DNA of 64,000 nt from Salvelinus alpinus (Eukaryota; Chordata; Actinopteri; Salmoniformes; Salmonidae): positions 75,083,580 to 75,147,579 of the forward strand of contig NC_092091.1 in the NCBI RefSeq assembly GCF_045679555.1. Reading direction: 5' to 3'. Positions 15,306 through 24,300 of this stretch are shown piece by piece. Under the pieces are notes generated by a model. That model did not search any database and was not told where the DNA came from. It saw only the letters and a list, made by a program, of their open reading frames with translations. Positions within the stretch are counted from its first letter, which is position 1. Each line of letters opens with the position of its first letter. Both the position numbers and the translations under genes were made by a program.

Positions 15306-18300
15306 CTGAGAGGGAGAAGAGGGGAGAGGGTGAGGTAGAAGGGGGGGGGGGGGGGGCGGCAGAGAGAGAGACATACAGAGGGAGAGAATGAGTGGGGGAG
15401 AGACAGGGAGAAAGAGGGAGAAAAAGTCATCAATCACCAATCAAGAGTTCATTCAGCAGTTTTGTGTCTATTTAGCAATGATGTGCTTGACACATGAACA
15501 CAGACAACATGGTACAGGAAGAAGGAAGTACATACCTGCATATTCCTGCACTATCCTCACCTCTGGAGTGTAAGAGAGAGAGGTGTTAAACCATCTAACC
15601 CCTGATCAAATACTGTATGTATTTTCACATGACTGGGACTTTGAGTTAATAAATGAATCAAAGCCTTACTTGGTTTTGGATTTCTTCCCACTGACTGGTC
15701 TGGTTGAGGTTGAGAAAGCCAATCTGGCCAAACAAAAGAGAATATCTATAATTATACAACGGGTGGGTGTATTCCTAAATGCCAAATGGTTTAAATCGCA
15801 TTCCAGTCGGTGTCTATTCTATAAGTTACCACCGGCTAAATCTATTATGTTAAAATGCCTATTTACTCTGTTCCATCTGACTGCACAATCCACTGTCTCA
15901 TCAGCCCAGGCAGGGAAGTTATAAACTTGATCTCCACTATAAAAAGCATCTAGACATTAACTCACATTTCTTTTAGACTAACATTTAGTTTTCAACAGTG
16001 CAGATTTGTATAAACCTTGCTCTCTGTCTCTCCGACATTTACAACATTGTTTCAATATTCAAATTCGATCTCCAGCTGTCCCATAGTAATGAACGTGTTG
16101 GGAGTCGGGATGAGTGTTTCTCAGCCAGTTGAAATCATGAATCAGCTGGCATTGGGTTTACAGTATAGTAAGAAATGTCAATTGAAAAAAGTAAAACGAG
16201 ACAAAGTGCAGCTAGTTTGCAGTCTTTCCAGCTTCAGTTTGAAGTGATTGTGTTGCTGTGTTGATGGCTATCTCCTCTGAACAACAGCTTCCTGATGAGA
16301 TAGAAAATGTTCTATGCCAGGCGATATCACGCCTCATTAGCTCATTGTTGTGGATGTATCCAAATAAATGTCACTAGAAAACAGCTTAAACAAATGCTAA
16401 TGCAGCTACTGTTGATATTCTGGGTGCAGTGTTTGACGTGACTGTAAGTTAGCCATAGTTGGCTAGCTAGCAAGCAAGGGATAAGAAGTTTCCAGCCAGT
16501 ATAGTAATGGAACATTTAGAACGAACGACTGGATCGCATTCATAGATACAGAACTGAACGACTGGGTCGCGTCTCTGGCAACCGAACCAATAGAATGAAC
16601 GACTTGCCGGCTAGGGTAGCAAACCTAGATCTGTGTCGACCTATATTTTGTGGTAGGATGAAATAGTTTGAATAAATTAATCAAGTTAACGTTTTTAATG
16701 AAAATATGTCAATCATTATTTGAATATTTTGGTAACCGATTGTATAAAAGTGACAATGCCCTTGAAGCCGGTGTTTGGAGGATATATTCGTCTCGGGCCT
16801 AACAACACCTGTACCAATTTATCCTTCAAACACCGCCTTCTCGATCATTATCACGTAATTAGACACTGTATGTATCATTGGTAACTGACACGTATGGAAT
16901 GGGCCTGTGTGTGTGACAGAAACATGAATGAATCCAAACCTGGACTATCTCTTCCTACAGAGTGTTCTGGTGGAGGTGGAGAACGCAAACCTGGCAAAAC
17001 AATATCATGTAATCAAATACAGTATTATTATTAGAAACAAATGGAAATGGATGAGTGTGACAGAAGCAGCCGTGAATTAATTAAACTCTTACTTGGACTA
17101 CTTCTTCCCATGGACTGGTCTGGTTGAGAAGGTAAATCTGGCCAAACAAAAGAGAATACAGGAAATGAATTACTGTATGAATTATTAGACATTCTGTTAT
17201 GCAGGTGAATGAGGACCCAAAAGCGACGTAATAGAAACAGAGTCTTTATTCCAGTATCAAACAAACAATGATTCTCCTGGATATATCAAAGGTAAATCCA
17301 AAACAGGAAACTGAAATCCTCTCGTCAGTAGAGAGGAACGACAGGAGACGCGACCACAGACTGCAGGTCGCTTCAGGAAGGCACAGGCCGTAGCTGACAT
17401 AGACACCTGCTCACACGCAGCATCTGAAGAAGGCAAAAACACGACAGGGCGGAACAAGGACACAGGAACAGCAAACATCAAACAAGAATCCGACAAGGAC
17501 AGAAGCGGAAAACAGAGGGAGAAATAGGGACTCTAATCAGAGGGCAAAATAGGGGACAGGTGTGAAAGAGTAAATGAGGTCGTTAGGAGAATGAGAAACA
17601 GCTGGGAGCAGGAACGGAACGATAGAGAGAGAGAGCGGGAGAGGGAGAGAGGGAGGAGGAGAGAGAGAGAGAGAAAGAGGGAAAGAACCTAATAAGACCA
17701 GCAGAGGGAAGCACAGGGACAAGACAAGATGATCAAAGACAAAACATGACAGTACCCCCCCACTCACCGAGCGCCTCCTGGCGCACTCGAGGAGGAACCC
17801 TGGCGGCAACGAAGGAAATCATCAATCAACGAACGGTCCAGCACGTCCCGAGATGGAACCCAACTCCTCTCCTCAGGACCGTAACCCTCCCAATCCACTA
17901 AGTACTGGTGACCACGTCCCCGAGAACGCATGTCCATGATCTTCCGTACCTTGTAAATAGGAGCGCCCTCGACAAGGACGGGGGGGGGGGAGGGAAGACG
18001 AACGGGGGCGCGAAGAAAAGGCTTGACACAAGAGACATGGAAGACAGGGTGGACGCGACGAAGATGTCGCGGAAGAAGCAGTCGCACAGCGACAGGATTG
18101 ACGACCTGAGAGACACGGAACGGACCAATGAACCGCGGAGTCAACTTGCGAGAAGCTGTCGTAAGGGGAAGGTTACGAGTGGAAAGCCACACTCTCTGAC
18201 CGCGACAATACCTAGGACTCTTAATCCTACGTTTATTGGCGGCTCTCACAGTCTGCGCCCTGTAACGGCAAAGTGCAGACCTGACCCTCCTCCAGGTGCG

Positions 18301-21300: not shown

Positions 21301-24300
21301 TGACGAAGATCTACCCGTCGTTCTATGCGGATGGCGAGTGCAATCAAAGAGTCCACGCTGGAAGGAACCTCCCGGGAGAGAATCTCATCCTTAACCTCAG
21401 CGTGGAGTCCCTCCAGAAAACGAGCGAGCAACGCCGGCTCGTTCCAGTCACTGGATGCAGCAAGAGTGCGAAACTCTATAGAGTAATCCGTTATGGATCG
21501 ATCACCTTGACATAGGGAAGCCAGGGCCCTGGAAGCCTCCTTCCCAAAAACTGAACGATCAAAAACCCGTATCATCTCCTCTTTAAAGTTCTGATAAACG
21601 TTAGAACACTCAGCCCTTGCCTCCCAGATAGCTGTGCCCCACTCCCGAGCCCGACCAGTAAGGAGTGATATGACGTAAGCGATCCGAGCTCTCTCTCTTG
21701 AGTATGTGTTGGGCTGGAGAGAGAACACAATATCACACTGGGTGAGAAAGGAGCGACACTCAGTGGGCTGCCCAGAGTAACATGGTGGGTTATTAACCCT
21801 AGGTTCCGGAGACTCGGAAGACCAGGAAGTAGCTGGTGGCACGAGACGAAGACTCTGAAACTGTCCTGAGAGATCGGAGACCTGAGCGGACAGGGTCTCA
21901 ACGGCATGACGAGCAGCAGACAATTCCTGCTCGTGTCTGCCGAGCATTGCTCCCTGGATCTCGACGGCAGTGTTGCGAGAATCCGTAGTCGCTGGGTCCA
22001 TTCTTGGTCGGATTCTTCTGTTATGCAGGTGAATGAGGACCCAAAAGCGACGTAATAGAAACAGAGTCTTTATTCCAGTATCAAACAAACAATGATTCTC
22101 CTGGATATATCAAAGGTAAATCCAAAACAGGAAACTGAAATCCTCTCGTCAGTAGAGAGGAACGACAGGAGACGCGACCACAGACTGCAGGTCGCTTCAG
22201 GAAGGCACAGGCCGTAGCTGACATAGACACCTGCTCACACGCAGCATCTGAAGAAGGCAAAAACACGACAGGGCGGAACAAGGACACAGGAACAGCAAAC
22301 ATCAAACAAGAATCCGACAAGGACAGAAGCGGAAAACAGAGGGAGAAATAGGGACTCTAATCAGAGGGCAAAATAGGGGACAGGTGTGAAAGAGTAAATG
22401 AGGTCGTTAGGAGAATGAGAAACAGCTGGGAGCAGGAACGGAACGATAGAGAGAGAGAGCGGGAGAGGGAGAGAGGGAGGAGGAGAGAGAGAGAGAGAAA
22501 GAGGGAAAGAACCTAATAAGACCAGCAGAGGGAAGCACAGGGACAAGACAAGATGATCAAAGACAAAACATGATACATACAGTATGTTGGGTCTGTGAGT
22601 GTGACAGAGACATGAATGTTATCTTGGACTTACTTGGACTATTTCTTCCTACAGCATGGTTTGGTTGAGAAAGCAAACCTGGCCAAACATAAGAGAATAC
22701 ATCAAGTCAATACCGTATAGATTATTAGACACACAGAATGGGAGGAGCTGGGACTTTGAGTGTGACACAGGCATGAATGAAAATCATACTTGGACTACAT
22801 CTTCCCACAGATTGGTTTGGTTGAGGTTGAGGACGCAACCCTGGCCAAACATAAGAGAATGCATTAATCAATATCAGACACATATTAGATCATCATTAAA
22901 ATAAAAAGATACAGATGGGGTGGTAATTTGAGCGTGTAAACCTTACTTGGAATATATCTCCCCACGGATTGGTCTGTTTGAGGTTGAGGACGCAGACCTG
23001 GTCAACAAAAGACAATGCAGTGTATGGGTCTATAGGTTCTCAACTGGTTTTGCCTTGGGACCCAAAATTAACCAGGTTGTCTCAGTCACAACATAATATT
23101 TGCATTGGGAAACATAATCGGCAAAATATAATCTGAAAAACTATTTTTAATGCTGTATTGATTTTAAATATAGCAATTATATGACAAGGGAACAACATTC
23201 CCACCTCTTTCATTGTCAATAAATACATTTTGCCCATGTTCTTGATGAAGATTGTTAAGAAACTCACTGGTTTGAGACAACAAAATCCACCAAAATATTG
23301 CTGCTAATAGCTTTATATTGAAAATACTGTGATTGAAGACTAATTGTTCGGAGATTAAAGTATTAAAAAAAATGTAAGTTCATTATCATTTATTCACACT
23401 TTCTACCTGGTTTAAATTGTTTAAGTTCAGACTGGAGTATTTTTTTATTACATTTTTTATTTATTTTACTGACACACACAACCCATTCAAAACCGCGACC
23501 AAAATTTGGGTCATGACCAACCAGTTGAGAATCGATGGTCTACATCATCCTCTACATATTGTATTGTAGCCTAGTAGTGTTCATAAAGTAAAGTTAGACC
23601 GTCATAACACTACAGTATTGTAGTAGTGCTCATAAAGTAAAATTAGACCGTCTCAACACAACAGTATTGTAGCCTAGTAGTGCTCATGAAGTAAAGTTAG
23701 ACCGTCTCAACACAACAGTATTGTAGCCTAGTAGTGCTCATGAAGTAAAGTTAGACCGTCTCAACACAACAGTATTGTAGCCTAGTGGTGCTCATAAAGT
23801 AAAATCAGACCGTCACAACACTACAGTATTGTAGTCTAGTCGTGTTCGTAAAGTAAAGTTAGACAGTCACAGTATTGTAGCCTAGTAGTGTTCATAAAGT
23901 AAAAATAGACCGTCATAACACTACAGTATTGTAGTAGTGTTCTTAAAGTAAAGTTAGCCAGTCACAACACTACAGTATTGTAGCCTAGTCGTGTTCATAA
24001 AATAAAGTTAGACCGTCTCAACACTACAGTATTGTAGTAGTGTTCATAAAGTAAAGTTAGACAGTCACAACACTACAGTATTGTAGCCTAGTAGTGCTCA
24101 TGAAGTGGCGCAGTGGCGCAGTGGTCTAGGGTACTGCATCGCAGTGCTAGCTGCGCCACCAGAGTCTCTGGGTTCGCGCCCAGGCTGGGCTGGGTTCGCG
24201 CCCAGGCTCTGTCGCAGCCGGCCGCGTCCGTGGGGCGACGCACAATTGGCATAGCGTCGTCCGGGTTAGGGAGGGTTTGGCCGGTAGGGATATCCTTGTC

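Follow-up and report, generated by a model that had tools for sequence, protein, structure and literature searches.

We analysed a stretch of 64,000 nucleotides from Salvelinus alpinus (contig NC_092091.1, positions 75,083,580 to 75,147,579; hereafter the window) whose minus strand carries, between window positions 29169 and 14511, a complete TRIM gene model of 15 exons encoding 688 amino acids without an internal stop. Between the coiled coil and the PRY-SPRY region of this protein lies a linker that is built from six short homologous exons, here called U1 to U6, and the annotated models of salmonid relatives contain these exons in different sets. The explanation that we favor, with moderate confidence, is that the linker tethers SPRY to the coiled coil at a length that splicing can vary, and that it would have originated from an ancestral linker exon amplified in tandem.

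Gene Model and Identity

All internal junctions of the model have AG/GT borders. The Pfam matches follow each other in one frame in the order RING, B-box, TRIM_CC, PRY and SPRY, and this succession of a RING, B-box and coiled-coil (RBCC) part and PRY-SPRY in a single open frame places the protein in TRIM class IV. The RING families score above the Pfam cut-off and the product is predicted to be an E3-ligase-type TRIM. Its SPRY domain finds its best solved-structure match in pyrin/TRIM20, and a PDB search with the coiled coil plus the linker returned one weak match.

All exons of the gene lie on the minus strand. Exon 1 (29031..29169) provides the start codon and most of the RING (Pfam RING 17-58) and is identical in the duplicate locus described below, while exon 2 (27245..27828) contributes the end of the RING, a proline-rich stretch and the B-box (zf-B_box 195-232). 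The coiled coil is encoded by exon 3 (96 nt, 26844..26939) and exon 4 (156 nt, 25901..26056), both placed by gene model and Pfam, and by exon 5 (78 nt, 25441..25518). Exon 4 is joined as in the database records P0001 and P0002; exons 4 and 5 together measure 234 nt. Exon 6 (139 nt, 25094..25232) covers the end of the TRIM_CC region and ends in phase 1 with the base T. On the far side of the six linker exons, exon 13 (27 nt, 15536..15562) begins with the bases AG and encodes VRIVQEYA, the lead-in to PRY. Exon 14 (15130..15305) encodes PRY and the first SPRY residues, and exon 15 (14511..14885) SPRY and the stop codon, again by gene model and Pfam.

Matching gene models in public databases are named TRIM21-like, TRIM25 or 'Bloodthirsty-related gene family, member 1'. 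The title of record P0002 reads 'E3 ubiquitin-protein ligase TRIM21-like isoform X2 [Salvelinus alpinus]', and the close UniRef matches P0005, P0008, P0010 and P0015-P0018 bear the bloodthirsty-related name. Judging by the names of these close matches, we are probably dealing with the salmonid representative of a teleost gene that Ensembl lists under this bloodthirsty-related name.

Six Tandem Linker Exons

The six units sit between exon 6 (25232-25094) and exon 13 (15562-15536) on the minus strand, at 22947..22997 (U1, 51 nt), 22790..22840 (U2, 51 nt), 22634..22678 (U3, 45 nt), 17093..17137 (U4, 45 nt), 16940..16990 (U5, 51 nt) and 15670..15723 (U6, 54 nt). Each has a length divisible by 3, an AG acceptor, a GT donor and phase 1 at both ends. 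The phase-1 frame is the sole frame open in all six, stops interrupting the other two frames in two and four of the units, respectively, and only U1 and U6 are open in all three frames. A profile, constructed purely from the nucleotides of the units and their flanks, retrieves six copies at 78.7-91.6 bits in the 64-kb window. A chance origin of their likeness is thereby excluded. The next best match reaches 7.2 bits (E 0.29), and no seventh, cryptic unit was found by this profile in the window.

From start to start the units are spaced by 157 bp (U1-U2), 162 bp (U2-U3), 147 bp (U4-U5) and 1,267 bp (U5-U6). U3 and U4 are separated in the window by a gypsy-type element and lie 150 bp apart in the duplicate locus, which is without it. 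With the splice-site bases left out, 3 of the 15 unit pairs on the upstream side and 7 of the 15 on the downstream side have flanking introns more alike than shuffled sequences (no more than 10 of 200 shuffles doing as well), all of them among U2-U5 plus the pair U2-U6. The units are tandem duplicates, with similarity extending into the introns for U2-U5 and U2-U6.

A tandem symmetric cassette array, of which titin PEVK is an example, is one in which the exons have the same phase at both ends and any subset keeps the frame. When all joins from exon 6 to exon 13 were checked, 63 of the 64 unit subsets remained open. Only the empty set is stopped, as the T that ends exon 6 and the AG that starts exon 13 form an in-frame TAG (ATC TAG). 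Since every unit is open and of phase 1-1, each can be kept or skipped, and because of the stop at the zero-unit join at least one must stay. Adjacent homologous exons with homologous introns, a further mark of such arrays, are present with the introns of U1 excepted. The six-unit linker comprises 100 residues, among them 21 Pro, 16 Ser and 12 Gln, and from this composition we assume that it is disordered.

Most of the structural claims made in an earlier, sequence-only reading of this DNA stand. It had described a TRIM gene with six segments of 45-54 nt, phase 1-1 and open in one shared frame, and all are present on the minus strand. Its near-identical borders are AG/GT in every unit, but the donor ccaa/gtaag that it gave for all is replaced in U2 (CAA/GTATGA) and U5 (CAG/GTTTGG). 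The proposed period of 153-161 bp for five of the units compares with measured spacings of 147-162 bp. The duplication of exon plus intron with matching flanks is borne out for the exons by the profile and for part of the introns, failing for every pair with U1. A shared SVGR..SP core is recognizable overall, with exceptions in U1 (ending GRYIP), U3 (AVGR), U4 (SMGR) and U6 (ending GRNPKP). The term microexon, which usually denotes about 30 nt or less, had to be abandoned, as the units exceed that size and are simply short exons.

We also rejected two other classes. Dispersed repeats, which the same reading had named as a refutation, are ruled out within the reach of a genome search that skips common words: the U1 region was matched 4 times and U6 with its flanks 6 times, always in the window array or its segmental duplicate. 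Heptad exons of the butyrophilin/BG kind measure 21 nt and not 45-54 nt; moreover, no transmembrane family is among the Pfam matches of the 688-residue model (no transmembrane predictor was run).

Segmental Duplicate and Gypsy-Type Element

The contig carries a second copy of the gene at a distance of about 312 kb, within a segmental duplication whose long blocks are about 92-99% identical and which leaves the TRIM frame intact in both copies. The duplicate has kept the six units, every AG/GT splice dinucleotide and the full reading frame. As both copies are open, a pseudogene is ruled out. The coding sequences of the two loci differ at 14 of 2,067 nt (8 nonsynonymous and 6 synonymous changes) and the introns from U1 to exon 13 at 27 of 1,746 aligned nt; the whole coding sequence has thus diverged more slowly than the array introns (Fisher p 0.011).

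The intron between U3 and U4 contains a gypsy-type long terminal repeat (LTR) element of 5.4 kb (17192..22573, ends approximate) on the minus strand, in the orientation of the TRIM gene. The element is young: its 558-bp LTRs are 100% identical, and it is missing from the duplicate locus. Both LTRs contain AATAAA, and the sense-oriented element may end transcripts of the window copy before U4. Record P0002 matches the window copy, with LPSQ and not VLSQ in U4, and is annotated across the element.

Unit Content of Salmonid Protein Records

The salmonid set comprises 21 records (P0001-P0021), all of them database gene models, which were collected by protein searches covering the best 120 of 3,164 and the best 120 of 393 matches. 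NCBI gene models normally make use of RNA-seq. Outside the linker, P0002 (S. alpinus isoform X2) has zero differences from the window model, and within it contains U1 to U4 and U6 and is without U5. The unit exons are therefore already annotated in public models under a generic name, and the claim that the layout is undescribed can be upheld only for the literature, where no describing paper was among the matches listed.

In 12 Salmoninae records the stretch from exon 6 to exon 13 resolves cleanly into units. Three of these records hold all six (Oncorhynchus keta P0001, O. mykiss P0014 and O. tshawytscha P0019, U5 being two residues shorter in the latter two), and the other nine are without one or two. 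U5 is missing five times, U2 and U3 twice each, U1 and U4 once each, whereas U6 is present in 12/12, and seven distinct unit sets result. The strongest pair for variation within annotated models is formed by the O. mykiss records P0005 and P0007, which are the same outside the linker; one is without U2 and the other without U5. Mutually exclusive exons can be dismissed, as each of the 12 records combines four to six units. The junction codons agree with splicing: U6 is preceded by D where it follows U5, whose last base is G, and by N where it follows U4, in line with the exon ends in the window. In Coregonus, P0021 (partial) has five units and P0020 three, U6 not being among them. Across NCBI and UniRef, the same units occur in the same order in records of at least seven salmonid species.

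The array that the sequence-only reading had called skippable thus exists in annotated models as cassettes in seven sets, and these sets may reflect regulated splicing; an effect of linker length on SPRY reach or target recognition, which it also proposed, stays a hypothesis. The direct joining of exon 6 to exon 13, which that reading had named as evidence against itself, encounters the TAG and would be a non-productive form. For copy number, one of the comparisons it had proposed, the count is six in S. alpinus as well as in O. keta, O. mykiss and O. tshawytscha, against five in Coregonus; synonymous and nonsynonymous change is taken up below.

Linker Length Across Fish and Origin of the Array

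Linker length was taken from alignments as the number of residues separating the exon-6 helix and the VRRVQEYA motif, and was obtained for 179 of the 181 fish proteins fetched; P0021 (partial, without PRY) and P0048 (no exon-6 match) could not be measured. The fetched proteins are cluster representatives chosen by similarity to the TRIM gene and include some isoforms of the same species, so that a species may be represented more than once. Of the proteins measured, 157 come from neither salmonids nor Esociformes. Forty of these, with linkers of at most 9 residues, were set aside by length alone and not by orthology. Many have a one-residue link and resemble other TRIMs of the family, and medaka records named member 1 are among them. 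In the remaining 117 the linker is exactly 16 residues long in 88 cases, typically CQRSxxDQSVPRPNPK, which would fit a single 45-nt phase 1-1 exon. Osmerus (23 residues) and Lepidogalaxias (24 residues) have one motif each. The unit-bearing salmonid linkers span 50-100 residues, and among Esociformes we find 94 in Umbra pygmaea and 135 in Dallia pectoralis; pike (Esox) was not among the matches listed by three protein searches, two of which comprised the best 120 of 3,164 and of 393. In Dallia (P0022), a run of 7-residue QLRTQPD-type repeats lies inside one linker unit and represents a second, finer layer of linker length growth.

When salmonid species are compared, units assigned by hand to one position have an average identity of 0.91 (75 comparisons) and units of different positions one of 0.62 (377 comparisons), indicating that the array and its unit order predate the split of Coregonus and Salmoninae. 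The second unit of Umbra matches U2 at 0.88 and its last unit U6 at 0.80, and the last Dallia unit also has its best match in U6. The first rounds of duplication therefore probably predate the Esociformes/Salmoniformes split, as far as unit likeness can tell, though the linkers may instead have grown independently, given that the units are only 15-16 residues long. The linker begins with C and ends with K in 75 of the 88 outgroup linkers of 16 residues. With a phase-1 T before and A/AR after the exon, skipping would be expected to create a stop in outgroups too, and the rule that the unit number never falls to zero may be old.

Unit Core and Splice-Site Strength

For the SVGR codons, a comparison among the six window units gives a pS of 0.44 and a pN of 0.09, compared with 0.18 and 0.27 for the remaining codons; the core was picked after seeing the data, and only its high pS is free of circularity. 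Of the 88 outgroup linkers of 16 residues, 81 have R at position 12, 66 have Q at position 8, 59 S at position 9, 62 V at position 10, 73 P at position 15 and 83 K at position 16. These patterns bear on the main rival to a tether, namely that valence and not length matters. Each unit would then be a docking motif with the core [D/E]QSVxRx.P for a partner or a proline-directed kinase, and splicing would set the number of sites. The retention of a core common to the units and the outgroup linkers fits this idea, as does the codon pattern, where the amino acids are kept and not the DNA. However, no docking partner is known, U1, U3 and U4 depart from the core, the units of Esociformes drift (TMER, TLER, TFGI), and the fixed outgroup length is as striking as the motif. 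We regard docking as possible, though rather unlikely.

The donors were scored with a hand-written weight matrix. Among the units, U5 (4.4) and U2 (4.7) are the weakest, the others ranging from 7.7 to 9.3. U5 is also the unit most often missing, and U2 ties for second place with U3, though the latter has the strongest donor (9.3). The donors of exon 1 (3.2) and exon 4 (1.5) are weaker still, yet both exons are present in P0001-P0010. The link between donor strength and unit absence is loose.

Proposed Model of a Splice-Variable Tether

The model that accommodates these observations would start from an ancestor with one 45-nt phase 1-1 linker exon, providing a 16-residue spacer that leads from the coiled-coil end to PRY-SPRY. 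This exon was probably duplicated in tandem in the shared ancestry of Salmoniformes and Esociformes, and in Salmonidae the array would have settled at six diverged units. Keeping or skipping units could then yield spacers of 50 to 100 residues, as in the unit-bearing salmonid records, while the TAG at the zero-unit join would ensure that at least one unit is kept. Such a proline-rich spacer of variable length may set the range over which the SPRY domain moves from the coiled-coil dimer: 16 residues should hold it near the center of the coiled coil and 50-100 residues should allow it to reach further. The geometry would thus have shifted from the short spacer of TRIM20/pyrin toward the long spacer of TRIM25.

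More speculatively, the array might serve an innate-immunity ligase as a molecular ruler set by splicing, in which a 16-residue spacer was freed by exon amplification in salmonids and their sister order, and one gene can place SPRY near the dimer center or let it reach the ends. The stop would forbid the zero-unit form, and the choice of units may follow tissue or infection to fit the size of the target. We put this extension forward tentatively, considering it less probable than the tether itself.

Several results weigh against the proposed tether. On the side of the gene models, 7 of the 21 salmonid records (P0011-P0013 and P0015-P0018) contain no whole unit. Six of these read past the exon-6 donor into the intron and rejoin near PRY, P0012 in addition holding the end portion of U4, whereas P0015 departs from exon 6 at an earlier point. 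Such records would arise if splicing sometimes bypassed the array or if the predictors failed on it. We tend to see prediction failures in them, because the direct join of exon 6 and exon 13 creates the ATC TAG stop, and the differences in unit content between records may likewise be prediction noise. Taken to its extreme, this argument would turn the segments into unspliced intronic repeats and the array into an artefact of annotation or assembly, to which the unitless records and the automatic nature of all models would lend some weight. Such an artefact is very improbable in view of the recurrence of the same units in the same order in several species, the intact duplicate locus, the stop at the direct join and the restriction of all unit-DNA matches in the genome search to the two arrays.

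On the side of selection, the unit bases taken alone differ between the two loci at 2 of 297 positions, against 27 of 1,746 in the introns (Fisher p 0.42); both differences fall in U4 and both are nonsynonymous. The pooled pN/pS among the six window units is 0.85. Constraint at the level of the unit is weak, and the data do not support clear purifying selection acting on the set of units. The pooled ratio would fit a neutral ratchet, in which duplicating or skipping symmetric in-frame exons costs little within a disordered linker, and the array and its isoform variety are tolerated noise. The 7-residue repeats inside one Dallia unit, the 5.4-kb element in one intron of one copy and the weak donors of U2 and U5, which are among the more often missing units (same matrix), agree with such a process. 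Against it, the six units keep their order and frame in S. alpinus and the three Oncorhynchus species, as do five in Coregonus, except that U5 is two residues short in some records from Oncorhynchus. In addition, U6 is never missing from the 12 Salmoninae records, and the 16-residue length is maintained in most outgroup proteins. Like docking, neutral growth is possible, though rather unlikely.

On the side of origin, no intron similarity above the shuffle control was found for any pair with U1. The fourth of the five Coregonus units is nearer to U2 than to U4 and the second ties between U1 and U2, and in both Umbra and Dallia the likeness of the first unit to U2 equals or exceeds that to U1. 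Linkers of 49 (Mugil) and 37 residues (P0148) depart from the outgroup length without containing units, and the medaka member 1 records P0144 and P0147, which are outside the 117, have a single-residue linker.

Other Repeats and Neighboring Genes in the Window

Tandem repeats accompany the gene at several places. The intron directly before U1 contains a 54-nt minisatellite (23561..24944) whose extent differs in the duplicate locus, and a 43-nt minisatellite (27996-29012, 23.7 copies) occupies most of intron 1. A 36-nt tandem repeat with 5.8 copies (29231-29437) shortly precedes the start codon and is probably 5' untranslated, since its open frame does not run into the ATG. Genome searches with SPRY and exon 6 revealed many other TRIM-type genes that carry an exon-6-like coiled-coil end and SPRY in one frame of about 550-600 codons, unlike the 15-exon gene described here. 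Four reading frames were tested between 42995 and 63030; three have a 7tm_1 receptor match, in one case below the Pfam cut-off, and the goby protein model P0127 combines TRIM domains of the same kind with 7tm_1; together these hint at a conserved neighborhood. A reverse-transcriptase frame (RVT_1, 509 aa) is located at 60155-61684.

Comparison With Known Systems

Tandem arrays of short exons and short linker exons in TRIM genes, such as the 60-nt finTRIM exon and exon 7 of TRIM5, are already known. Among fish class IV TRIMs, the finTRIM (ftr) and bloodthirsty-related (btr/TRIM39-like) proteins have the same RBCC-B30.2 order as the protein studied here. The coiled-coil exons reported for fish class IV TRIMs in the relevant part of PMC2657112 measure 96 and 234 nt, compared to 96 and 156+78 nt here; in finTRIMs, B30.2 is preceded by exons of 154 and 60 nt and encoded by an exon of about 545 nt, where we find 139 nt, the units and 27 nt, followed by 176+375 nt. 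A repeated linker exon is not described for fish TRIMs in the passages concerned of PMC2657112 and PMC3137616, the word 'linker' being absent from both main texts, and no paper on a tandem linker-exon array in a TRIM was found among the matches listed in the open-licence literature.

Comparable exon layouts are known from other genes. Titin PEVK, as presented in sections of PMC6469411, likewise consists of many short repeat exons whose differential inclusion varies its length and thereby sets compliance, and some of its duplications have been linked to LINE elements; with 113 annotated human exons, titin is a muscle spring unrelated in sequence to the TRIM units. Chicken BG genes and butyrophilins also contain many tiny repeat exons, a few heptads preceding B30.2 in butyrophilins, yet these are 21-nt heptad exons of transmembrane proteins (PMC4046983, in part) and not proline-rich exons of 45-54 nt. 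In TRIM5/TRIMCyp, according to the portions of PMC4378998 dealing with Linker2, the length of this linker affects restriction, and its exon 7, situated between coiled coil and C-terminal domain as the units are, affects cytoplasmic bodies and multimers, though not alone. There, a single exon is present or absent, unlike the tandem array of six.

TRIM25 offers a likeness in function. Its linker between coiled coil and PRYSPRY, 73 residues long, unstructured and invisible in the crystal, varies in length and sequence between species and lets PRYSPRY dock toward the ends of the ~170 A coiled coil, while the short linker of TRIM20 keeps its two PRYSPRY domains about 45 A apart (PMC5940772, linker passages). 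Those passages do not describe the TRIM25 linker as an array of duplicated exons or as varied by splicing; it is suggested there that diverse linkers may accommodate substrates that differ in size. The salmonid gene presents a case in which a linker of conserved length would have become splice-variable through symmetric exon duplication. Its natural series of three to six spacer units, beside relatives with 16 residues, makes it testable with natural proteins how the spacing between coiled-coil dimer and SPRY shapes TRIM function.

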